From contig CM067369.1 in the NCBI GenBank assembly GCA_034401795.1, forward strand, positions 87,694,506 through 87,758,505: DNA of 64,000 nt, given 5' to 3'. Origin of the DNA: Chaetoderma sp. LZ-2023a. Its lineage: Eukaryota; Mollusca; Caudofoveata; Chaetodermatida; Chaetodermatidae. The notes under the pieces were generated by a model, which worked only from the letters and a program-made list of their open reading frames with translations, ran no database searches and was not told the origin of the DNA. This document shows, piece by piece, positions 2,105-49,605 of this stretch. A program made the translations under genes and the position numbers. The number at the start of each line of letters is the position of its first letter. Position 1 is the stretch's first letter.

Positions 2105-5100
2105 TATGATGGTTATAATTGTCTGGGTATGATCTATGATGGTTATGATCTATGATGGGTATGATCTATGATGGGTATGATCTATGATGGTTATGATCTA
2201 TGATGGTTATGATCTATGATGGTTATGATCTATGATGGTTATGATCTATGATGGTTATGATCTATGATGGTTATGATCTATGATGGGTATGATCTATGAT
2301 GGTTATGATCTATGATGGGTATGATCTATGATGGTTATGATCTATGATGGTTATGATCTATGATGGTTATGATCTATGATGGTTATGATCTATGATGGGT
2401 ATGATCTATGATGGTTATGATCTATGATGGGTATGATCTATGATGGGTATGATCTATGATGGTTATGATCTATGATGGTTATGATCTATGATGGGTATGA
2501 TCTATGATGGTTATGATCTATGATGGTTATGATCTATGATGGTTATGATCTATGATGGTTATGATCTATGATGGGTATGATCTATGATGGTTATGATCTA
2601 TGATGGTTATGATCTATGATGGGTATGATCTATGATGGTTATGATCTATGATGGTTATGATCTATGATGGTTATGATCTATGATGGTTATGATCTATGAT
2701 GGTTATGATCTATGATGGTTATGATCTATGATGGTTATGATCTATGATGGGTATGATCTATGATGGTTATGATCTATGATGGTTATGATCTATGATGGTT
2801 ATGATCTATGATGGTTATGATCTATGATGGTTATGATCTATGATGGTTATGATCTATGATGGTTATGATCTATGATGGGTATGATCTATGATGGTTATGA
2901 TCTATGATGGTTATGATCTATGATGGTTATGATCTATGATGGTTATGATCTATGATGGTTATGATCTATGATGGTTATGATCTATGATGGGTATGATCTA
3001 TGATGGGTATGATCTATGATGGTTATGATCTATGATGGTTATGATCTATGATGGGTATGATCTATGATGGTTATGATCTATGATGGTTATGATCTATGAT
3101 GGTTATGATCTATGATGGTTATGATCTATGATGGTTATGATCTATGATGGTTATGATCTATGATGGTTATGATCTATGATGGTTATGATCTATGATGGTT
3201 ATGATCTATGATGGTTATGATCTATGATGGTTATGATCTATGATGGGTATGATCTATGATGGTTATGATCTATGATGGTTATGATCTATGATGGTTATGA
3301 TCTATGATGGTTATGATCTATGATGGTTATGATCTATGATGGTTATGATCTATGATGGTTATGATCTATGATGGTTATGATCTATGATGGTTATGATCTA
3401 TGATGGTTATGATCTATGATGGGTATGATCTATGATGGGTATGATCTATGATGGTTATGATCTATGATGGTTATGATCTATGATGGTTATGATCTATGAT
3501 GGTTATGATCTATGATGGATATGATCTATGATGGTTATGATCTATGATGGGTATGATCTATGACGGTTATGATCTATGATGGTTATGACCTATGATGGGT
3601 ATAATTGTCTGGGTATGATCTATGATGGATATGATCTATGATGGTTATGATCTATGATGGTTATGATCTATGATGGTTATGATCTATGATGGGTATGATC
3701 TATGATGGTTATGATCTATGATGGTTATGATCTATGATGGGTATGATCTATGATGGGTATGATCTATGACGGTTATTATCAATGGTGGGTATGATCTATG
3801 ATGGTTATGATCTATGATGGTTATGATCTATGATGGTTATGATCTATGATGGTTATGATCTATGGTGGGTATGATCTATGATGGTTATGATCTATGATGG
3901 TTATGATCTATGATGGTCATGATCTATGATGGGTATGATCTATGACGGTTATGATCTATGATGGTTATGATCTATGATGGTTATGATCTATGATGGTTAT
4001 GATCTATGATGGTTATGATCTATGATGGGTATGATCTATGATGGTTATGATCTATGATGGTTATGATCTATGATGGTTTATGATCTATGATGGGTATGAT
4101 CTATGATGGGTATGATCTATGATGGTTATGATCTATGATGGTTATAACTGTCTGGGTATGATCTATGATGGTTATGATCTATGATGGGTATGATCTATGA
4201 TGGTTATGAGCGTCTGGGTATGATCTATGATGGATATGATCTATGATGGTTATGATCTATGATGGTTATGATCTATGATGGTTATGATCTATGATGGGTA
4301 TGATCTATGATGGTTATGATCTATGATGGTTATGATCTATGATGGTTATGATCTATGATGGGTATGATCTATGATGGTTATGATCTATGATGGTTATGAT
4401 CTATGATGGTTATGATCTATGATGGTTATGATCTATGATGGTTATGATCTATGATGGTTATGATCTATGATGGTTATGATCTATGATGGGTATGATCTAT
4501 GATGGTTATGATCTATGATGGTTATGATCTATGATGGTTATGATCTATGATGGTATGATCTATGATGGTTATGATCTATGATGGTTATGATCTATGATGG
4601 TTATGATCTATGATGGATATGATCTATGATGGTTATGATCTATGATGGTTATGATCTATGATGGTTATGATCTATGATGGTTATGATCTATGATGGTTAT
4701 GATCTATGATGGTTATGATCTATGATGGTTATGATCTATGATGGTTATGATCTATGATGGTTATGATCTATGATGGTTATGATCTATGATGGGTATGATC
4801 TATGATGGTTATGATCTATGATGGTTATGATCTATGATGGTTATGATCTATGATGGTTATGATCTATGATGGTTATGATCTATGATGGTTATGATCTATG
4901 ATGGTTATGATCTATGATGGGTATGATCTATGATGGTTATGATCTATGATGGTTATGATCTATGATGGTTATGATCTATGATGGTTATGATCTATGATGG
5001 TTATGATCTATGATGGTTATGATCTATGATGGTTATGATCTATGATGGTTATGATCTATGATGGTTATGATCTATGATGGTTATGATCTATGATGGTTAT

Positions 5101-8100
5101 GATCTATGATGGTTATGATCTATGATGGTTATGATCTATGATGGATATGATCTATGATGGTTATGATCTATGATGGTTATGATCTATGATGGTTATGATC
5201 TATGATGGTTATGATCTATGATGGTTATGATCTATGATGGTTATGATCTATGATGGGTATGATCTATGATGGTTATGATCTATGATGGTTATGATCTATG
5301 ATCTATGATGGTTATGATCTATGATGGTTATGATCTATGATGGTTATGATCTATGATGGTTATGATCTATGACGGTTATGATCTATGACGGTTATGATCT
5401 ATGATGGTTATGATCTATGATGGGTATGATCTATGATGGTTATGATCTATGATGGGTATGATCTATGATGGTTATGATCTATGATGGTTATGATCTATGA
5501 TGGTTATGATCTATGATGGATATGATCTATGATGGTTATGATCTATGATGGTTATGATCTATGATGGGTATGATCTATGACGGTTATGATCTATGATGGT
5601 TATGACCTATGATGGGTATAATTGTCTGGGTATGATCTATGATGGATATGATCTATGATGGTTATGATCTATGATGGTTATGATCTATGATGGTTATGAT
5701 CTATGATGGGTATGATCTATGATGGTTATGATCTATGATGGTTATGATCTATGATGGGTATGATCTATGATGGGTATGATCTATGACGGTTATTATCAAT
5801 GGTGGGTATGATCCATGATGGTTATGATCTATGTTGGTTATGATCTATGATGGTTATGATCCATGATGGTTATGATCTATGGTGGGTATGATCTATGATG
5901 GTTATGATCTATGATGGTTATGATCTATGATGGTCATGATCTATGATGGGTATGATCTATGACGGTTATGATCTATGATGGTTATGATCTATGATGGTTA
6001 TGATCTATGATGGTTATGATCTATGACGGTTATGATCTATGACGGTTATGAGCATCTGGGTCTGATCTATGATGGGTATGATCTATGATGGTTATGATCT
6101 ATGATGGTTATGATCTATGATGGTTATGATCTATGATGGTTATGATCTATGATGGTTATGATCTATGATGGGTATGATCTATGACGGTTATGATCTATGA
6201 CGGTTATGATCTATGATGGTTATGACCTATGATGGGTATAATTGTCTGGGTATGATCTATGATGGCTATGATCTATGATGGTTATAACTGTCTGGGTATG
6301 ATCTATGATGGTTATGATCTATGATGGGTATGATCTATGATGGTTATGAGCGTCTGGGTATGATCTATGATGGATATGATCTATGATGGTTATGATCTAT
6401 GATGGTTATGATCTATGATGGTTATGATCTATGATGGGTATGATCTATGATGGTTATGATCTATGATGGTTATGATCTATGATGGTTATGATCTATGATG
6501 GGTATGATCTATGACGGTTATGATCGATGACGGTTATGATCTATGATGGTTATGATCTATGATGGGTATAATTGTCTGGGTATGATCTATGATGGTTATG
6601 ATCTATGATGGTTATAACTGTCTGGGTATGATCTATGATGGTTATGATCTATGATGGGTATGATCTATGATGGTTATGAGCGTCTGGGTATGATCTATGA
6701 TGGATATGATCTATGATGGTTATGATCTATGATGGATATGATTTATGGTGGGTATGATCTATGATGGTTATGATCTATGATGGTTATGATCTATGATGGT
6801 TATGATCTATGATGGTTATGATCCATGATGGTTATGATCCATGATGGTTATGATCCATGATGGTTATGATCCCTGATGGTTATGATCCATGATGGTTATG
6901 ATCTATGATGGATATAATTTATGATGGATATGATCTATGATGGTTATGATCTATGATGGTTATGATCTATGATGGTTATGATCTATGATGGTTATGATCT
7001 ATGATGGTTATGATCTATGATGGTTATGATCTATGATGGTTATGATCCATGATGGTTATGATCCATGATGGTTATGATCCATGATGGTTATGATCCATGA
7101 TGGTTATGATCCCTGATGGTTATGATCCATGATGGTTATGATCTATGATGGTTATGATCTATGATGGTTATGAGCGTCTGGGTATGATCTATGATGGATA
7201 TGATCTATGATGGTTATGATCTATGATGGATATGATCTATGGTGGGTATGATCCATGATGGTTATGATCTATGATGGTTATGATCTATGGTGGGTATGAT
7301 CCATGATGGTTATGATCTATGATAGTTATATGTGTCTGGGTATGATCTATGGTGGGTATGATCCATGATGGTTATGATCTATGATAGTTATATGTGTCTG
7401 GGTATGATCTATGATGGTTATGATCCATGATGGTTATGATCCATGATGGTTATGATCCATGATGGTTATGATCCATGATGGTTATGATCCATGATGGTTA
7501 TGATCTATGATGGTTATGATCTATGATGGTTATGATCTATGATGGATATGATCTATGATGGTTATGATCTATGATGGATATGATTTATGATGGATATGAT
7601 CTATGGTGGGTATGATCCATGATGGTTATGATCTATGATGGTTATGATCTATGATGGTTATGATCTATGATGGTTATGATCCATGATGGTTATGATCCAT
7701 GATGGTTATGACCCATGATGGTTATGATCCCTGATGGTTATGATCCCTGATGGTTATGATCCATGATGGTTATGATCTATGATGGTTATGATCTATGATG
7801 GTTATGATCTATGATGGATATGATCTATGATGGTTATGATCTATGATGGATATGATTTATGATGGATATGATCTATGGTGGGTATGATCTATGATGGTTA
7901 TGATCTATGATGGATATGATCTATGATGGTTATGATCTATGATGGATATGATTTATGATGGATATGATCTATGATGGATATGATCTATGGTGGGTATGAT
8001 CCATGATGGTTATGATCCATGATGGTTATGATCCATGATGGTTATGATCCCTGATGGTTATGATCCATGATGGTTATGATCTATGATGGTTATGATCTAT

Positions 8101-8425
8101 GATGGTTATGAGCGTCTGGGTATGATCTATGATGGATATGATCTATGATGGTTATGATCTATGATGGTTATGATCTATGATGGTTATGATCTATGATGGT
8201 TATGATCCATGATGGTTATGATCCATGATGGTTATGATCCATGATGGTTATGATCTATGATGGTTATGATCTATGATGGATATGATCTATGGTGGGTATG
8301 ATCTATGATGGTTATGATCTATGATGGTTATGATCTATGATGGTTATGATCTATGATGGGTATGATCTATGATGGCTATGATCTATGATTGGTATGATCT
8401 ATGATGGCTATGATTGTCTGGGAGG
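2105..8425. repeat. 6.3 kb minisatellite, 16 bp unit
   Basis: Roughly 395 near-identical copies of GGTTATGATCTATGAT. Common variants are GGGTATGAT, GGATATGAT, GATCCATGAT and GACGG. Irregular spacers of the type 'ataattgtctggg', 'taactgtctggg' and 'tgagcgtctggg' recur and mark higher-order blocks. Because 16 is not a multiple of 3, every frame soon meets a TGA or TAA, so it is not coding. The right third (from about 6720) is richer in GATCCATGAT variants, which suggests local homogenisation. Confidence 0.95.
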
Positions 8426-15880: not shown

Positions 15881-16034
15881 TCTGCCCTCAATGTTATCAT
15901 GCTGCTTCCTAACATTATAGGTAACCAGGTTTCCAAGTTGTAATAGCCTTAACCAATGCTGAAATATAAGCGGAAAAGTCTTTGCTAAACGCAAAAACTT
16001 AATGTTGAAATAGCAGTTATATATCAAGGTCAGT

Positions 16035-16268
16035 GACCATGACCTTTGACCTTGTGATCCCAACATCATCATGTTGCATCCTATCATTATAGGTAACAGT
16101 GTATCCAAGATGCAATAGGCTTAACCAATCCTGAAATATAAGCCGAGACGTGACCATGACCTTTGACCTTGTGATCCCAACATCATCATGTTGCATCCTA
16201 TCATTATAGGTAACAGTGTATCCAAGATGCAATAGGCTTAACCAATCCTGAAATATAAGCCGAGACGT
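16035..16268 (+). repeat. Near-perfect 117 bp tandem duplication
   Basis: The segment from 'gaccatgacctttgacc' through 'aatcctgaaatataagccg' occurs twice at an offset of 117 bp with no differences that I can see. This indicates recent duplication inside the older, diverged monomer array. Confidence 0.8.
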
Positions 16269-17942
16269 TTTGCTAAACGCAAAAACTTAATGTTGAAAAA
16301 GCAGAGTTCTGTATCAAAGTCACAGTGATATTGATCTTTGACCTTCTGACACCAACATCATCATGCTGCTTCCTAACATTATAGGTAACCATGTATCCAA
16401 GTTTAGTTGCAATAGTCTTAACCAATCCTGCAATATAAGCTGAAAAGCTTTGCTAAATGCAAAAACTTAATGTTGAAATAGCACAGTTCTATATTTGACT
16501 TTGTGATCCAAATATCATCCTGCTGCATCCTATCATTATCGGTAACCATGCATCCAGGTTTACTTGCAATAGGCTTACCCAATCCTGAAATAAAAGCTGA
16601 GAGGTTTTGCTACACGCAAAAACTTAATGTTGAAAAAGCAGAGTTCTGTATCAAGGTCACAGTGATATTGACCTTTGACCTTTTGACCCCAACATCATCA
16701 TGTTGCATCCTATCAATATAGGTAACCATGTATCCAATTGGATCAGGCATTGCTGAGATATAAGACAATAACCTCTGTTTAGCGCAAAAACTTAAAGTAA
16801 AATATTAACAAAGATTATACTGTGACCTTTGACCCCATAACCTTGACATCATGACCGGTTTATCAGTGGGCTGCTTCCATTCAATGTATATCACCATGTA
16901 TCCAAGTTTGGTTCGAATTGAATCAGGCATTGCTGAGATATAAGGCAATAACTTTTGTTTAATGCAAAAACTTAACGTAAAATAATAACAAAGATTATAC
17001 CATGACCTTTGACCCCCATAACCGTGACCGCATGATGTCTGCATCAGCATGCTGTTTCCTTTTGATGTATATCACCATGTACCCAAGTTTGGTTCCAATT
17101 GGATCAGGCATTGCTGAGATATAAGGCAATAACCTTTTTTTAATACAAAAACTTACCGTAAAATATTAACAAAGATTATACTGTGACCTTTGACCCTACA
17201 ACCGTAACCTTATGATGTCTGCATCAGCATGCTGCTTCCGTTAAATGTAAATCACCATGTACCCAAGTTTGGTTCCAATTGGATCAGGAATTGTTGAGAT
17301 GTAAGACAATAACTTTTGTCTAATGCAAAAACTTAACGTAATATTAACAAAGATTAAACCATGACCTTTGACCACACACCCTTGAACGTATGATGCAGGA
17401 CACCCTTGAACGCATGATGCCTGCATCAGCATGCTGCTTACTTTCGATGTATATCTCAATGTATCCAAGTTTGGTTCCAATTGGATTAGGCATTGCTGAG
17501 ATATAAGACAATAACTTTTGTTTAACGCAAAATCTTAACATAAAATATTAACAAAGATTATACTGTGACCTTTGACCCCATAACCTTGACGTCATGACTG
17601 CTTTATTGGTGGGCTGCTTCCAGTCAATGTATATCACTATATACCCAAATTTGGTTCCAATTGGATCAGGCATTGCTGAGATATAAGGCAATAACTTGTT
17701 TAACGCAAAAACTTAACATAAAATATTAACAAAGATTATAATGTAACCTTTGCCCCCTGTAACCTTGACCTCATGGCCTTTTCATCGGTGGGCTGCTTCC
17801 TTTTTGATGTATATTACCATGCACCCAAGTTTGGTTCCAATTGGATCAGGCATTGCTGAGATATAAACGTAACTTAAAAGTTTACGCCGCCGCCGCCGGA
17901 AAAGTGATACCTATGTCTCGATCCTGCTTCGCAGGCGAGACA

Positions 17943-21739: not shown

Positions 21740-22760
21740 GCCGGCTCTAACAGACCCAGACAGCGCCTCTCAACCCAGAAGTGAAAGCACTACTACCGGA
21801 AAGATACAATGAAACTGGAACCGGAATCTAACAGACCCGGAAAAGTACCTCTCCTACCGGAAGTGGACGCACTACTACCAGAAACAGATACAACAAAACC
21901 GGACCTTGAAAAGGAAGTAGGATGCGTAGCAGGATCTAACAGACCCGGAAAAGCACCTCTCCTACCGGAAGCAGATACATACGCGGAAACGGAAAAACTG
22001 GAACCGGAAATTGAAGACGGAAGCTTGACCGGATCTAACCAACCCGGAAAGCACCTTGCAAACTGGAAGCAGAAATACTACTACCGGAAACTGAAGCGAA
22101 ATAACTGGAAATAGATAACAGATGGTTGACCAGATCCAATAGACCCTGAAAAGCACCTCTCAAACCGAAAGCAGAAAAACTACTACCGGAAACGGATGTG
22201 GAAATAACCAGAACCAGAAAATGATAAGATGCTTGGCCAGATCCAACAGACCCGGCAAATCATCTCTCCTACCGGAAGCAGATACACTACCACCGGAAAC
22301 GGATGCAGAAATAACCGGAACCGGAAATTGATAACAGATGCTTGGCCAGATATAACACACCCGAAAAAGCACTACTCATACCGGAATCAGATACACTACT
22401 ACCGGAAAAGGAAGCGGAACAAACCGGAACCGGAAATTGATAACAGATGCTTGGCCGGATATAACAGACCCGAAAAAGCACTACTCATACCGGAAGTAGA
22501 TACACTACTACCGGAAACGGAAACGGAACAAACCGGAACCGGAAATTGAAAACTGATGCTTGGCCAGATCGAACAGACCTGGAAAATCATCTCTCCTACC
22601 GGAAGCAGATACACTACTACCGGAAACGGAAGTGGAACAAACCGGAACCGGAAATTGATAACAGATGCTTGGCCAGATCTAACAGACCCGGAAAATCATC
22701 TCTACTACCAGAAGCAGATACACTACTACAGGAAACGGAAGTGAAAAAAACACGGAAATA
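21740..22760. repeat. 109 bp minisatellite rich in CCGGAA
   Basis: About nine units. The last five are spaced exactly 109 bp apart (landmark GCTTGGCC at 22231, 22340, 22449, 22558, 22667). Each unit carries 'aacagacccggaaaa', 'taccggaagcagatacact' and several CCGGAA boxes. 109 is not a multiple of 3, and frames such as 21809-22114 break between units, so coding is unlikely. Lies in the upstream part of the DIRS relic. Confidence 0.8.
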
Positions 22761-23230
22761 GAGGACATCCGCTCATCTAGAGAATTATGTAAAAACATAC
22801 TTAATAAGAGATCTCTAAATATGGTAATCCGCTAAAGAAACAAAACCTCCATACAAGAGACAGAGTAACGGATTTGAAAATCTCACTGAAAGACCAAGAA
22901 TTTCACGAAGTTTCACAAGATATTTTTATGTAGGCACTAATATACTGAGCCAAAAAAGTTTAGCAACAGTGAAGTTTGGTTTGTTGTATTAAAACTATGC
23001 GTCCATTTATAACCAAATTTGCAGGCATGTTTCGTCAATGTAATGTCTCGCTGATCATGAAGAAATGCAAATTATTTCTTGCATTTCTCGGCCGCACGCT
23101 TACTGCGTGTGAAAATGCATTTTTCATGCACTGGCCCACATTGGCGGGTAGCGAAGGCAAAAATTCACCATATTGCAAAAGCAGATAGCGAACGTTAACA
23201 GAAAACGCTTAAAAGTTTACCTTACGAAAC

Positions 23231-24058
23231 ATGGGCCGCCGCCCAGGGCTACCCGAAAATCAGCGCCATAAAGGAATGGGAAGACTCGCTGCTGGGCAGA
23301 GCGCTCGCGCTGTTGCTCGACATTTTAATGTTCACGCCTCAACCATTTCCCGTCTCCACCAACGTGAGCAGGAAACTGGACATGTTAATGACCGACCACA
23401 ATCTGGCAGACAGAGAGCAACAACACCATGAGAAGACCGTTACTTATTGACGTCATCACGACGTCACAGGTTTGAGACTGCGCCGTGGCTGTCCCGTAAT
23501 TTGCACACCGCTACCGGCACTACAGTGCATGCACAAACTGTGTGAAACAGACTCCATGATGCTGGACTGCATGCGACCCGTCGTCCACTTGTTGCTGTTC
23601 CGCTTACCGAGCGTCACATCGAGAATCGGCTTGCATGGGCAAGAACGCATCAGCGATGGCGTGCTCAACAATGGAGCCACGTTTTGTTCAGTGATGAGTC
23701 GAGGTTTTGTGTGGATGTGGCGGATGGTAGGCAATGGGTTTGGCGATGTTTAGGAGAATGGTATGATGCAGCCAACATCATTCAGCACGACAAATTCGGT
23801 AGCAGCAGTGTCATGGTGTGGGCTGGAATCCATGAAAATGGCAAAACAGATCTTATTGTGATTCGCGGAAATTTAATGGCTCAACGTTACTGTGAAGAAG
23901 TTGTCTCCCCTGTTGTCATCCCTTTTATGCAGCATCATGCAGACTATGTTCCAGCAAGACAACGCCCGTCCTCATTCAGCTGGGGTCACCAGTGATTGCC
24001 TTGAGGCTAACAACGTTCCGGTGTTGGACTGGCCAGCGCGATCACCGGACCTTTCTCC
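23231..24058 (+). pseudogene. Tc1-like transposase, N-terminal and catalytic core
   Basis: Starts MGRRPGLPENQR. The paired-like helix-turn-helix is visible as GMGRLAAGQSARAVARHF and STISRLHQR. A TGA at 23429 and frameshifts follow. The first catalytic Asp is in FSDESRF (codon 23693-23695). The frame then shifts before the second Asp, in FQQDNARPHS (codon 23958-23960). The reading reaches WPARSPDLSP and is cut by the hAT insertion at 24059. From the second Asp to the glutamate in the downstream piece there are 34 residues, the Tc1 DD34E spacing. Cut-and-paste transposase, dead in this copy. Confidence 0.85.
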
Positions 24059-24185
24059 CAGGGTTGGCAAGTTTTGGACACTAGTGGTTTAAACCGCGGT
24101 TTAAACCATGGTTTAAACCGTCCGCCCAAAATAGGTTTTGGACACCTTAAATTGTCCAAAACTGTCCAAAACCTAAAATATTGGT
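24059..24185. promoter_or_regulatory. hAT left terminal and subterminal repeats
   Basis: After the TIR come GGTTTAAACCGCGGTTTAAA, further TTTAAACC copies, and TTTTGGACA and TGTCCAAAAC repeats in both orientations. Their counterparts fill 28590-28713. In hAT elements such subterminal repeats are transposase binding sites; that role is inferred here. Confidence 0.55.
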
Positions 24186-24855
24186 ATAAAAAATATTTTT
24201 CTGAAATGTAATTTTCTTAAAACAACTATATAGCATTTAGACACATACAGGTACATGTACATATTGATGGATGGTTATCTACATGTATTTTTGGATACTT
24301 TATTGCTATATAATAATAATAATAATCTAAAAGGACACATATGATTTCAATAAATTAGGAGTCTTATTTGCTTCTTTCTATAATCCATGGGTTAATTTTT
24401 TTCAACTTTTGTTTGTCTTAAATGTTTTAACTCTGTATATTTCGACCAGTTGTGTTAAACCCACAGAAACCCTATTTAATCAATAATGTAAACATATTAG
24501 ACTACCTATGTACAGCTAGATGTTTATATTATTGAGAACTGTCTCTGTGTCTAAATCTATTTCTTGCAAAATGTTCATGGCCTATGGAAGAATCTTAAAC
24601 TCATAGAGAAAATATAGTCTGCTAAGATGTTGTTTCAACAATTAACTGATGACCCTTGCTCTCTAAGGCTATTTTAGAATGCACTACTCAGTACACACAT
24701 TAGCTATGTTTACATAAGATCTTATGCAAATTTGGGATTAAGGCATTAAGCTGATAAAATATAAATTAGATTCTTCATGTTTTCATCTATCCTCAGTTAA
24801 TGCTAGATATCAATTAGACAATTAGTAAAAAGATATCCTTGTGCTACATTAATCT

Positions 24856-25146
24856 TTGAATTATTCTGTTGTCCTGAATATTTATGTGTTGATGGTATTT
24901 GAAATAGTTATTATGTATTTCAAAGGTGGTAGGCCTAAGGATCCAATTTGGAAGCACTTTTTGGAAGTTAAGATTAATGGCAAACAAATGGCTAAGTGTA
25001 GAGAGTGTGAGTACACAGTTGTCAACAAGGTAGCAAGGATGAAAATACACTATGAGAAGCATGAGAAGTCTACTGAAAGTCCTGTTGAACAGGCTGATAC
25101 AGACAGTGCAGACACACATATCAGTAAAGACATCAAGATTTTGAAG
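24856..25146 (+). CDS. hAT transposase exon 1: BED zinc finger
   Basis: 97 codons ending exactly at a donor (TTGAAG|GTAAAT). A BED-type zinc finger runs from GGRPKDPIWKHF (residue 24 of the open frame) through CREC (C48, C51) to HYEKH (H65, H69), the DNA-binding domain of hAT transposases. The first ~20 residues are hydrophobic and may be non-coding, so the start is uncertain: it may be M13, M20 or an upstream exon. The exon ends in phase 0, matching exon 2. Confidence 0.75.
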
Positions 25147-25370
25147 GTAAATAAAATTAATGCTTAACCCCTTGCCCTCTAATGTCAATAATTAAAAATT
25201 CTATATTTTATTGTGACTATACCAAGGAAACTGGTTTTCATTTTTCAACAATTTTGTTGGGCGATGACAAATTTGTTGAAAATAAAAAACAGTTTATCTT
25301 TTAATTTTATTTGAAAAATGTTTTTTGTTGACATTGGAGTGCTAGGAGTCCAATATATCTAATACATCCC

Positions 25371-25540
25371 TTAACCCTTTCACCGATGAATTCCTCAGCT
25401 ATCATTTTCAAGGACACTATGCGGGAAAACTGCAGAATATTTTGAAACTAATTTGACTGGAAAACAAATTTACTCGTGAAATGACTGCCGCTTTTACTAA
25501 GCCAGTCATTTCAGTGAAAAATTTCCAAAGATTTGTGCTA
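25371..25540 (+). repeat. Family C/A chimeric hairpin remnant
   Basis: TTAACCCTTTCACCGATGAA start and AATATTTTGAAACTAATTTG arm, then a family A-like hairpin GAAATGACTG ... CAGTCATTTC. The right terminus is not recognisable. Confidence 0.5.
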
Positions 25541-25683
25541 AGTTGTGTTTAAAAGTCATAATGTACAATGTAGGTAAGGTTACTATAAACTGTAATTGTC
25601 TTGGCCGCATACGGGTTATCAACAGGATGTCTCACCTTTAGTTCAGATACCTGAGTTAATTATTCTCTTTGCCATGCTAGTAA

Positions 25684-26354
25684 GGCTGCGTTTCCACAGA
25701 ACCTCACGCCTCACGGCTCACGCCTCACGTCTCACCCCTCACATCTCACGCCTCACGGTTCACGTTTCACGTCCGTTTCCATTAACAGGTTCACGTTTCA
25801 TTTCGGACTACGTTTTTGTAGCAAGAAGATGGATTCTTCTGACGAAGAAACGTTCGCACTAATGCTACTGTTAAAATGCCAGCAACGGAAACGAAAACAA
25901 AAATTAAATAAGCGTTCCATGTGGTGTCGTGAGCATTATTTATTACGCCTATATAGTAAAATCTACACGAAGGTCCACCTCTATATAAAGGCCACTTTTG
26001 CTAATTCCCGAGTCCATTGCAACACTACATTCGAACCTCGATACAAAGACCACCTGACCATAAAGGTGTATTTTTATATGCCGACATAAGTAAAATATGA
26101 AATTACCTGTATCAGGACAAAGATTTTAAATGATCTCTATACAGGCTTTACTACGGTTTCACCTCATGTTTAATGAACATGTACATTCATTGACTCGGGC
26201 GTGAGGCATGAATCGAAAGTTAACGTGACATGAGTCGGCCTATGGAAACCGCCGTATTGGTGTTCGTATGTTTATTTCTCCGTTCACGTGTGGGACGTGA
26301 GGCGTGAAGCGTGAAGCGTGAGGCGTGAGGCGTGAGGTTCTGTGGAAACGCAGC
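25684..26354 (+). mobile_element. Deleted PIF/Harbinger element
   Basis: Perfect terminal inverted repeats GGCTGCGTTTCCACAGAACC and its reverse complement, flanked by TAA on both sides (25681-25683 and 26355-26357), the 3 bp TWA target duplication of PIF/Harbinger elements. Inside each end are repeated ~10 bp CTCACGCCTCACG-type units, inverted between the two ends. The interior keeps what looks like the start of a Harbinger protein (MDSSDEETFALMLLLK at 25829, then RSMWCREH), but the catalytic region is absent. Non-autonomous. Confidence 0.75.
25829..25930 (+). pseudogene. Harbinger transposase N-terminal fragment
   Basis: MDSSDEETFALMLLLK followed by a basic stretch (QQRKRKQKLNKR) and SMWCREHYLLR resembles the usual acidic-then-basic start of PIF/Harbinger nucleases. 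The similarity is lost after about 35 residues and no DDE motif follows, so this is a deletion remnant. Confidence 0.5.
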
Positions 26355-26896
26355 CTAATAGAGCCAGGTCTGATAATCTCTGATAACCACAATCACATGC
26401 TGATCTTTACAATTCAATGGTATAGGTGGCTTAAGATTAGAAATAAAACACAATGATCTGCTTAACCCTATACTTTCTGCAACCCAGGGTTTTCAGAAAT
26501 ACTCTTGCCTGAATACCTTTACTACAGTAATATTATGAAAACAATTTGGCATAGCACACTAACACCCTTCAGATAGACTGATGCAAACAGTCAAACTAAT
26601 ATTCAGCAAGTCCCAAAGTTTTGAAAATAAATAAAAACATGCATTTATTTGACAGAAGGGTGGTCTATCTTTAACTCTATCCATTCCAAATTTTAAATGT
26701 ATTGAATTATGACATAAAATTAATTACTTTTGAAAATTCAACATAGGAATGACTGATTTTGTTGCAATGCCAGTCATTTCAATGTAAATTTTTAAAAAGA
26801 TTATCATATCTTGTCCCCAAATGGCTTGGACCAGGTAGGGTGTATATCTACATTTGGCTTATATAGCGCATGTAATATCCCTTTTCTTTGTTTCAG

Positions 26897-28423
26897 CTGG
26901 ACAAACCATCAGCTGCACCATGCACAAAGCGACTAAGAGAAGAATTGCCATCACAATCAGCACCACCCTCACCAACCTGTCCAGTTCAATTCTCAATTCA
27001 ACCCGATCTGAGCCGACATTGTATCACTACCACCTCAGCGATGAAGTCAGCAATAGATATAGAAGTCGCGAGGTTGTTTTATGCTTGTAACCTTCCATTT
27101 TCAATGGCTGAACATCCGCAGTTCATAAAAGTTGTTAGTATGCTACGCCCAGGATATAAACCCCCTTCACGTAAACTGATTGGTGGAAAGCTTCTAGATG
27201 CTGTGCATGATCAGGTGACAGAAGATATGAAGGTGATTCTTGATGGCAAGACAGCAACATTAGTGGAGGATGGGTGGAGTAACATTCACAATGAACCTAT
27301 CATAGCATCCTGCTTGCAAGTAGAAGGAAAGAGCTCCTTCCTAAACAGCTTTGACACTGGTTCTATGACTAAAAGTGCTGAAAACTGCAAGGTGAAGTGT
27401 CAAGAGACAATACAATATGCTAAGACAAAATACAACTGTACAGTTAAGAGCATTGTCACAGATAATGCAAAGAACATGGAAAAAATGTGTGATGGTTTGA
27501 AGGCTGATGACAATGATCTTATTGTCTATGGCTGTTCTGCACACTGGCTAAACTTACTAGGGCAAGACATAACACCGGATACGCTAATTAAGCATGTAGT
27601 TGAGATTCAAAAATATTTCAGGAATCACCACAAGCCACTATCCTGGCTCTCGGAATGTATTGGTAGTGTTAAGCCACAGCTTCCTTGTGACACTAGATGG
27701 AAGAGTCAACTCGTGTGTATTGACTCCTTCATTCACAACCATCCACATTTCATGAAAATTGTACAAGACCATGAAGGAGAAATAGATAATTCTATTGTCA
27801 AGAAGATAATGGACTTTAACCTGTTTAGAAATGCAAGAGACGTAACCGAACAACTTCGGCCAATTTCAATAGCAATTGACACATGTCAGAGTGACACATC
27901 AACACTAGCCGATGCATGCCATGTTTGGCTTGAATTACTAAACAACACTCTGCTAGAACCACACAAGAAAACTCTGTTAGCAAGTTTCAGCAAGGCAATC
28001 CTGCCAGAGCATCTTGTCGCATACACATTACATCCAAAGTTTCAAGGCGAGATGCTGGTAGGAAAACAGTTTGAAGAAGTGAACAATTGGATAATAGCTA
28101 AGAACCCTAGCTTTATAGCAACATTTATTGCATACCAGGCTAAAAGCAGCCCATTTCCTGCATCATATTTCTGTGATGCTGCAGTTCAAGTGCCTTCAGT
28201 GACATGGTGGAAGGCCTTGAAAACACTAGGTGTGCCAGGTGATTTTATTGATATGGCTATTCAGCTGCTTGAAGCACCAGCATCATCAGCATCGATTGAG
28301 AGAATTTTTAGCAATTTTAGCTATATCCACACTAAAATCTGTAATAGGCTTGGAGTAGAGAAAGCGTCAAAGCTAGTGTTTTGCTACAGGATGTTGAGAG
28401 GGCTGTCTGATTTGGACTACTAA
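26897..28423 (+). CDS. hAT transposase exon 2: catalytic and dimerisation domains
   Basis: 508 codons without interruption, starting LDKPSAAPCTKR right after the acceptor TTTGTTTCAG and ending SDLDY-stop. In the open frame that begins at 26888, hAT landmarks are: LVEDGWSN (first catalytic Asp, residue 128, in a DUF659-like block), VTDNAKNM (second Asp, 192), CSAHWLNL (the CxxH of the hAT insertion, 216-219), TRW (269-271) and SSASIERIF (catalytic Glu, 471). The last lies in the C-terminal dimerisation region ending RNRL-like CNRLGVEKASKLV. With exon 1 the protein would be about 605 residues, normal for the family. All three catalytic acids are present and no stop is seen, so it may be active or only recently silenced. 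Confidence 0.9.
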   Translation: MDKPSAAPCTKRLREELPSQSAPPSPTCPVQFSIQPDLSRHCITTTSAMKSAIDIEVARLFYACNLPFSMAEHPQFIKVVSMLRPGYKPPSRKLIGGKLLDAVHDQVTEDMKVILDGKTATLVEDGWSNIHNEPIIASCLQVEGKSSFLNSFDTGSMTKSAENCKVKCQETIQYAKTKYNCTVKSIVTDNAKNMEKMCDGLKADDNDLIVYGCSAHWLNLLGQDITPDTLIKHVVEIQKYFRNHHKPLSWLSECIGSVKPQLPCDTRWKSQLVCIDSFIHNHPHFMKIVQDHEGEIDNSIVKKIMDFNLFRNARDVTEQLRPISIAIDTCQSDTSTLADACHVWLELLNNTLLEPHKKTLLASFSKAILPEHLVAYTLHPKFQGEMLVGKQFEEVNNWIIAKNPSFIATFIAYQAKSSPFPASYFCDAAVQVPSVTWWKALKTLGVPGDFIDMAIQLLEAPASSASIERIFSNFSYIHTKICNRLGVEKASKLVFCYRMLRGLSDLDY

Positions 28424-28589
28424 TTAAACCTAATTAAGCCTTTTAAGTTTTAATTGTATGTATTTGATAAAAATGTAATAATAACTCATATAATAAATGG
28501 ATTTGTTTAATATAGTGCTTTTGATGCAATCTCTGATTTCTTGTTATTTTTTAATAGGATTATGATGCATAAGAGTATGGTGATATGTA

Positions 28590-28715
28590 CAACATAGTTT
28601 TGGACAATTTTGGACAGTTTTGGACTGGTTTAAACCATTTAAGACAGGTTTTAGACAGGTTTTGGACAATGTCTGCTCAAAGTTAGTTTTGGACTGTCCA
28701 AAACCCAACCCTGCA
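28590..28715. promoter_or_regulatory. hAT right subterminal and terminal repeats
   Basis: Five TTTTGGAC or TTTTAGAC copies and a GGTTTAAACC before the terminal GTCCAAAACCCAACCCTG, mirroring the left end. Confidence 0.55.
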
Positions 28716-28924
28716 GTGTCTCCTAGATCGAACACGTGTGGGACATTCTTGGTCGTATGGTGCGTGAGAACCATCCACATCTTCACAACATGCGGCAGCT
28801 GGAAGCTGCACTGCTCCAGGAATGGGATGCGATTCCTCTTCGTGACATCAAGTGCTTAATTCGAAGCATGAGAAAGCGATGTCCGGCAGTGGTTAATGCG
28901 CGCGGAGGTCACAAGCGGTATTGA
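28716..28924 (+). pseudogene. Tc1-like transposase, C-terminal part
   Basis: Resumes with IEHVWDILGRMVRE (catalytic Glu codon 28730-28732), then LEAALLQEWDAIP and LIRSMRKRCPAVVNARGGH and a stop at 28922, the normal Tc1 C-terminus. A 2 bp frame offset exists just before the glutamate even after subtracting the hAT insert. This piece and 23231-24058 were one gene before the insertion. Confidence 0.85.
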
Positions 28925-29134
28925 CAGCTCAGTGTCATTATTTAAATGTACCCTTCCGTTGAATGATGCCGTGTTAAAGGCGCGATGCTAGCATTACAGT
29001 AACAAGAGACTGTTGTTCAAATTGGAAAATGACCTATCAATTAAATAATATATTTGGATCAATTTATTGTTTTTGTTAAATAACATTTATACAGTAATAT
29101 TCTGAGTGTTGCTAAACTTGTTTGGTTCAGTATA

Positions 29135-34586: not shown

Positions 34587-34808
34587 GTAACCCTTTAACG
34601 CTCGTATCAGCCAAAAACTGCTTCTGGTCGTGAGAAATGTCCAATTGCAGATCAAGAAGAGTATTTTTGAAAATTTACCACAGGAATGACTGGCTCGATA
34701 ACTGAGCCAGTCATTGCAGTGGTACATTTTCAAAAATACTCTTCTCTTGGTCTGCAAATGGACATTTTTGAGAAAATTTTAATTTTCTTGAACAGGTTAA
34801 AGGGTTAA
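34587..34808 (+). mobile_element. Family A hairpin MITE, complete
   Basis: GTAACCCTTTAACGCTCGTA to AGGTTAAAGGGTTAA. Nearly perfect hairpin CCACAGGAATGACTGGCTCG / CGAGCCAGTCATTGCAGTGG (inner loop ATAACTGAG). Complete arm boxes. Confidence 0.75.
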
Positions 34809-38994: not shown

Positions 38995-39183
38995 TGCAGA
39001 ATGGTGGATTTGGGATGATGATGATGATTGTGATGGTGATGAACATGATGACGATGATGATGATGTTGACGATGATGATGATGATGATGATGATGACTAT
39101 GCCGATGATGGTGATGCCGATGATGATGATGGTGATGCCGATGATGATGATGATGATGGTGATGCCGTCAATGATGGTGATGC

Positions 39184-39215
<32 letters not shown>

Positions 39216-39633
39216 CTGATGCTGATGCCGATGATGATGCTGATGATGGCGATGCCGATGATGATGATGCTGATGATGATGCCGATGCCAATGATGGCGA
39301 TGCCGATGATGATGATGATGATGGTGATGCCGTCAAAGATGGTGATGCGGATGATGATGATGATGGTGATGCTGATGATGATGATAATGGTGATGCCGAT
39401 GATGATGATGGTGATGCCAATGATGATGATGATAGTGATGATGATGATGCCGATGACTGTTGATGCCAATGCTGATGATGATGATGCCGATGATGATGAT
39501 GCCGATAATGGTGATGATGATGATGCTGATGATGGTGATGATGACATTGACGACGATGATGATGATGTTGGCGGCGGTGATGACGGCGACGACAGATGAT
39601 GATGATGATGATGATGATAATGACGACGACGAC

Positions 39634-39671
<38 letters not shown>

Positions 39672-40148
39672 CGATGACGACGATGATGGTGATACTGATG
39701 ATGATGATAATGCTGATGATGATGCCGATGATGATGATGGTGATGTCGATGATGATGATGCTGATGATGCCGATGATGATGGTGATGCCGATGATGATGA
39801 TGGTGATGCCGATGATGATGGTGGTGATGTCGATGATGATGATGGTGGTGATGTCGATGATGATGCCGATGATAATGATGATGATGCTGATGATGTCGAT
39901 GATGATGATGATGATGCTGGTGATGTCGATGATAATGATGATGATGCTGGTGATGTCGATGATAATGATGATGATGCTGGTGATGTTGATGATGATGATG
40001 ATGATGATGATGGTGATGTCAATGATGATGATGCTGGTGATGTCGATGATAATGATGATGATGCTGGTGATGTTGATGATGATGGTGGTGGATGTCGATG
40101 ATGATGATGCTGATGATGGTGATGTTGATAATGATGATGATGATGATT
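38995..40148. repeat. 1.15 kb (GAT)n trinucleotide tract in gene X 3' UTR
   Basis: Nearly continuous GAT with GCC, GGT, GCT and GTC interruptions, giving local 12-24 bp periodicities (for example the block 'gatgatgatgctggtgat' repeated at 39905-40070). Long open frames on both strands (poly-Met, poly-Asp, poly-Ser, Ile) are expected from a trinucleotide repeat and are not genes. On the minus strand it begins two bases after the inferred gene X stop, so it would be transcribed as an AUC-rich 3' UTR. Confidence 0.85.
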
Positions 40149-49400: not shown

Positions 49401-49605
49401 TTAACCATTGGTTCGGCTAAAAACGGCTTCTTCAGTGGTCTTGAGAAATGTCCATTTGCAGACGAAGACAATTTTTGAAAATTTACCACTGAAATGACTG
49501 TCTCGACTGAGCCAGTTATTCCAGTGTTAAATTTGAAAAAATAGTCTTCTTTTGGCCTGCATATGGACATTTTCTAATGATAACATTGAAAGTTTCTTAA
49601 ACAAA
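49401..49605 (+). mobile_element. Family A hairpin MITE
   Basis: TTAACCATTGGTTCGGCTAA start; complete arm boxes; shortened hairpin (GACTGTCTCGACTGAGCCAG). A further remnant follows at 49720-49832. Confidence 0.6.

Follow-up and report, generated by a model that had tools for sequence, protein, structure and literature searches.

A nest of DNA transposons three levels deep has been identified at positions 22941-29134 of a 64,000-nucleotide stretch of the genome of Chaetoderma sp. LZ-2023a, referred to below as the window. This nest is very probably an ordinary stack of class II (cut-and-paste) elements, in which a hAT element lies within a Tc1 element and a Harbinger-like element lies within the intron of the hAT gene. 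It has been delineated by boundaries, ends, reading frames, splice signals and domain matches. All three elements of the original prediction were located where it had placed them and their superfamily assignments are upheld, those of Tc1 and hAT by ends and gene and that of the Harbinger-like element by ends and TAA only. The nesting is thus supported; the further claim, that position settles the relative ages, goes too far and is taken up in the last section.

Nested class II elements are expected, and the Tc1, hAT and Harbinger-like elements are members of known superfamilies. In one survey of analysed mollusc genomes, which ranks class II superfamilies by transposase signature, TcMar comes first, hAT second and PIF-Harbinger fifth (PMC10294476). 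In the 64,000-nt window blastn found no further copy of the Tc1, the hAT or the Harbinger-like element. An Rfam scan gave nothing reaching the gathering score and an ARAGORN scan for tRNAs gave none.

The Tc1 element and its divided transposase gene

The outermost element is comprised of the following features.

22941-29134: Tc1 element with TA flanks and terminal repeats matching at 26 of 28 bp
22941-22968, plus strand: left terminal inverted repeat, with TA at 22941-22942, complementary at 26 of 28 positions to 29107-29134
29107-29134, minus strand: right terminal inverted repeat, with TA at 29133-29134
23231-24058, plus strand: 5' part of a decayed Tc1 transposase gene, with the N-terminal helix-turn-helix and the first and second catalytic D
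28714-28924, plus strand: right flank of the hAT element and the remaining, 3' portion of the Tc1 transposase gene (IEHVWD to the stop)

The TA target duplication (at 22941 and 29133) and the inverted terminal repeats are those of a Tc1 element, as had been predicted. The left part of the gene matches the Pfam family HTH_38 (E 3.6e-7). Its stretch FQQDNARPHS...LDWPARSPDLS(P) gave a match to the Sleeping Beauty transposase (E 9e-6), in a query whose last codon was completed by the first base of the hAT element. The end point of this match was set aside as evidence, the query itself being cut at the insertion point. Two in-frame TGA codons (23429-23431 and 23543-23545) and a frameshift near 23940-23953 interrupt the left part. 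To the right of the hAT element an in-frame TAG (28724-28726) is followed by IEHVWD, with the codon of the catalytic E at 28730-28732, and the frame continues to a stop that ends at 28924. A count by eye that allows for one proline codon spanning the insertion gives 34 residues between the second D and the E, the spacing of DD34E transposases.

Against Pfam DDE_3 the trimmed left piece by itself reaches 12.3 bits, and the left and right pieces joined through XX score 21.3 bits (profile positions 86-138), which is below the cut-off of 28.6; the left piece joined through XX to the reversed right piece gives no match to this family. Because the score rises on joining and is lost when the right piece is reversed, both pieces most likely belong to a single transposase gene, in line with the prediction of a single divided DD34E transposase. 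By itself the right half matches no Pfam family and shows no meaningful similarity to a solved structure, a weak match to a tagged Mdm2 construct having been rejected as evidence. In the viral and prokaryote collections, where close relatives only are reachable, no relative of this half was confirmed and 10 pattern matches failed.

This element shares with Tc1 (DD34E) members of the IS630-Tc1-mariner group the TA flanks, the helix-turn-helix N-terminus, the DD34E spacing and the SPDLS(P)-IEH motif, and it is alike in size, about 1.5 kb without the hAT element. Unlike known Tc1 elements it is decayed, with two TGA codons and a frameshift left of the hAT element and a TAG beside it, it is split by the hAT element, and its terminal repeats are just about 28 bp long. 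The hAT element is inserted shortly upstream of the codon of the catalytic glutamate, the third catalytic residue. This insertion suffices by itself to destroy the transposase, and the Tc1 gene may or may not have been broken before it.

The hAT element and its insertion site

The element that divides the Tc1 gene has the following organisation.

24059-28713, plus strand: hAT element within the Tc1 transposase gene, with CAGGGTTGG ends, subterminal GTTTTGGACA motifs and GGTTTAAACC palindromes
24913-25146, plus strand: hAT transposase exon 1, BED zinc finger (zf-BED), with a GT donor at 25147
25147-26896, plus strand: putative phase 0 intron, from splice signals and the open joined frame, containing several repeat pieces
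26897-28423, plus strand: hAT transposase exon 2, DUF659 and hAT dimerisation region, preceded by a TTTCAG acceptor

The sequence CAGGGTTGG is present at both ends of the element and absent from the remaining window. The two 130-bp ends together carry 10 exact copies of TTTTGGAC, and the remainder of the window has 3; the expectation for the ends is a mean of 0.003 with a maximum of 1 (300 simulations of the ends). Within the window the GGTTTAAACC palindromes are confined to the hAT ends. Allowing up to 2 mismatches, GTTTTGGACA has 11 sites in the two ends, 7 of them exact and 4 with one mismatch. Short CAGGG-type inverted ends with subterminal repeats are thus present as in hAT elements, and the CAGGG-ended hAT element predicted between the Tc1 halves is recovered with both its ends. 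The pattern of these ends had no match in the viral and prokaryote collections, where close relatives only are reachable.

Exon 1 encodes a zf-BED domain (E 2.6e-4; 21.4 bits, above the cut-off of 20.6), and an alternative in-frame ATG upstream, at 24892, is possible. In exon 2, DUF659 is matched above the Pfam cut-off (E 4.5e-13). The dimerisation region, Dimer_Tnp_hAT, is matched below it (E 0.0025; 18.0 bits against 21.4) and has the Hermes transposase as its best solved relative (E 4.6e-4); the BED finger and this region together place the gene among hAT transposases. The exons join in phase 0 to give 586 codons without lesion, and the hAT element is, as predicted, the sole element of the nest with an apparently intact gene; it looks autonomous and may be active. 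Exon 2 gave no confirmed relative in the viral and prokaryote collections, where close relatives only are reachable, and 7 pattern matches failed.

The left-end subterminal repeats of Hermes are known to be bound by its BED domains, and Hermes insertion gives 8-bp duplications (PMC10368747). By analogy, the BED exon and the subterminal motifs suggest that this element works in the same mode. Its transposase would be comprised of a BED finger for the subterminal repeats, a central DUF659 region and a dimerisation domain. It shares with Hermes-type hAT elements the CAGGG ends, the subterminal repeats, the N-terminal BED finger and a C-terminal region matching the Hermes transposase. It differs from them in the central DUF659 match, in the long putative intron after the BED exon and in having no clean 8-bp duplication at its present site.

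An exact 8-bp target duplication, which belongs to hAT insertions and was implied by the original prediction, is absent. The left flank ends in CTTTCTCC and the right flank is CA followed by GTGTCTCC, i.e. CAGTGTCTCC. Abutting flanks match at 4 of 8 positions, which 2769 of 20000 random pairs equal or better. Among offsets 0-5 the best is 2 nt, where 6 of 8 positions match, and 857 of 20000 random pairs are as good. The assignment to hAT is therefore made from the ends and the gene, and the insertion itself is described as irregular. TCTCC, a part of the Tc1 reading frame, is found on both sides, which still favours a duplication altered at or after hAT insertion.

The imperfect, offset duplication, together with the frame offset and the in-frame TAG adjoining the right hAT end, would also be explained if the Tc1 halves came from different copies united at the hAT element by ectopic recombination or repair, a history that accounts for the lack of a clean duplication. 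We consider it improbable, as the halves meet within one codon region and the Tc1 element has outer ends that pair well (26 of 28). An assembly or polishing error at the right hAT/Tc1 junction has the irregularity of the junction as the one observation in its favour; the hAT motifs extend up to this point and, from 28727, the Tc1 frame stays open, and such an error is scarcely credible.

The extent of decay after insertion has been gauged from simulated neutral change of the hAT frame. With an indel ratio of 0.1 the frame stays intact in 47 of 400 simulations at 1% substitution and in 2 of 400 at 2%; with a ratio of 0.2 it stays intact in 1 of 400 at 2%. Without indels the corresponding numbers are 204 of 400 at 1% and 102 of 400 at 2%. 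Since simulated frames with indels seldom survive, much decay after the insertion is unlikely if the frame is unselected, and this is in small tension with the imperfect duplication.

Repeats within the putative hAT intron

The intron of the hAT gene contains, besides the Harbinger-like element, four other pieces of dispersed repeats, two of them old-looking. The predicted nest of three elements is accordingly borne out for those three and is an undercount of what the intron holds.

25159-25266, plus strand: part of a further repeat, 71% identical to 59666-59567
25370-25466, plus strand: one arm of a dispersed repeat family with a TTAACCCTTT end, 78.8% identical over 99 bp to 58477-58379, with matches to others
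25442-25560, plus strand: diverged copy of a palindromic repeat family, with a core at 25469 that scores 39/53 to the consensus
25684-26355, strand unassigned: non-autonomous PIF/Harbinger-like element of 672 bp, with TAA at 25681-25683 and 26356-26358
26725-26824, plus strand: second diverged copy of the palindromic family, with a core at 26737 that scores 34/53

The intron would thus have collected several non-autonomous elements, of which the PIF/Harbinger-like one is the best preserved. From their location within the intron we infer that these repeats would be spliced out, so that the hAT transposase would stay readable.

The ends of the Harbinger-like element are GGCTGCGTTTCC, and its terminal repeats are perfect over 32 bp and then decay, the 67-nt arms being 90% complementary. 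The TAA on both sides fits the 3-bp TWA target duplication of PIF/Harbinger, and the prediction of a TAA-flanked element with perfect terminal inverted repeats inside the hAT intron is confirmed. Autonomous PIF/Harbinger relatives encode a DDE transposase and a Myb-like ORF1. In the present element a frame of 86 codons (25829-26089) matched no family in Pfam, and its weak matches to unrelated proteins of solved structure, none of them meaningful, were rejected as evidence. We take the start of this frame to resemble the N-termini of animal Harbinger transposases. The PIF/Harbinger assignment itself is made from the ends and the TAA only, and is put forward as probable on that footing. The element shares with Tourist-like non-autonomous PIF/Harbinger elements the TAA on both sides, the perfect terminal repeats and the absence of a recognisable transposase of its own. 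Unlike them it has long repeat-rich ends with CCTCACG units, and no coding match to the superfamily was obtained. PIF/Harbinger insertion gives rise to 3-bp duplications, and the non-autonomous relatives of these elements are mobilised by two proteins, ORF1 and the transposase (PMC2836001).

Cores of the palindromic family, 53 bp long, are dispersed across the window (1-64000), mostly in 33000-64000, and some lie between TAACCCTT and AAGGGTTA ends, for example at 34674 and 44807. A consensus derived from 14 copies outside the hAT element was used in an ungapped scan at a threshold of at least 33/53. It gave 21 matches, the maximum in simulated sequence being 29 (three runs, one strand). The 19 matches outside the intron comprise 13 that score 48-51/53 and 6 that score 33-42/53, in a scan where copies bearing indels score low or are missed, as is the one near 49482. 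In a gapped search the two intron copies are 74% and 68% identical, and several of the copies outside, though few, have comparably low identity. A ranking in which the intron copies were the lowest 2 of 16 and seemed the most decayed of all was given less weight, the set having been chosen by likeness to them. As the consensus search found more low-scoring copies outside, the claim is limited to their being among the more diverged.

CpG content and the order of insertion

The observed/expected ratio of CpG is 0.95 in the Tc1 element, 0.27 in the hAT element without the Harbinger-like insert and 1.33 in the Harbinger-like element. The contrast of a mask drawn on the nest is 0.78, and none of 907 masks of the same form slid along the window equals it (maximum 0.38), the slid masks being overlapping, at 50-base steps, with tandem arrays included. 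This supports the element boundaries independently. Family history, and not the succession of insertions, is what the CpG content reflects, because the middle element is the poorest in CpG. As an age clock CpG was rejected, for it ranks the hAT element as the oldest though this element necessarily entered a pre-existing Tc1 element. The contrast is a warning against the use of CpG decay as a clock across families.

The window has several tandem arrays. At 2105-8414 there is a strongly GC-skewed 16-bp satellite (TATGATGGTTATGATC), present in about 396 copies that match at 92%. The region 16033-17866 has tandem repeats that overlap one another and whose periods range from 117 to 382 bp; several of them contain TGACCTTTGACC. 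A CCGGAA-rich 109-bp tandem repeat at 21820-22757 stops about 180 bp short of the left end of the Tc1 element, and at 39014-40147 there is an array of about 377 GAT units, which is degenerate.

The low CpG in exons, introns and ends of the hAT element raises another reading, namely that its gene is under selection at this locus as a long-resident, domesticated transposase within its own ends. The insertion would then be old, with introns that aged along with their repeats and CpGs that were lost. The intact frame of 586 codons, the imperfect target duplication and the diverged repeats within the intron would all be accommodated, and the finding, if true, would be of a transposase caught en route to domestication. 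Very little credence is given to it here. The subterminal GTTTTGGACA motifs have barely decayed (7 exact and 4 with one mismatch, of 11), as in a recently mobile element, and the surrounding Tc1 element shows no CpG depletion (0.95).

Nested insertions are an established guide to relative age (PMC2836289). In the present nest the order that the original prediction read from position holds in so far as the hAT element came after the Tc1 element and the Harbinger-like element after the hAT element. It does not hold for the Harbinger-like insertion relative to the landing of the hAT element in Tc1, which position alone does not date, because a mobile element can take its inserts along when it moves.

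The ordinary stack may accordingly be refined, with no opposition to it, by an order that we favour slightly. The intron repeats, possibly with the Harbinger-like element, would have joined the hAT lineage before its landing in Tc1 and been carried in, so that the nest would hold a copy of an already loaded hAT element. The intron palindromic copies are 26% and 36% off the consensus, whereas 13 of the 19 other matches score 48-51/53, and an unselected hAT frame seldom survives 2% substitution with indels (2/400 and 1/400); therefore these copies look older than the landing of the hAT element. Against this, the 6 low matches among the other 19 (33-42/53) show that the intron copies are not unique, subgroups within the family could mimic age, and without indels as many as 102 of 400 simulated frames survive 2%. 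The Harbinger-like element, with its perfect 32-bp ends and high CpG, may itself be recent.

The nest is a readable case of class II elements stacking in a eukaryotic genome. It also shows a limit of dating by position, since inserts may ride with the mobile element that contains them.
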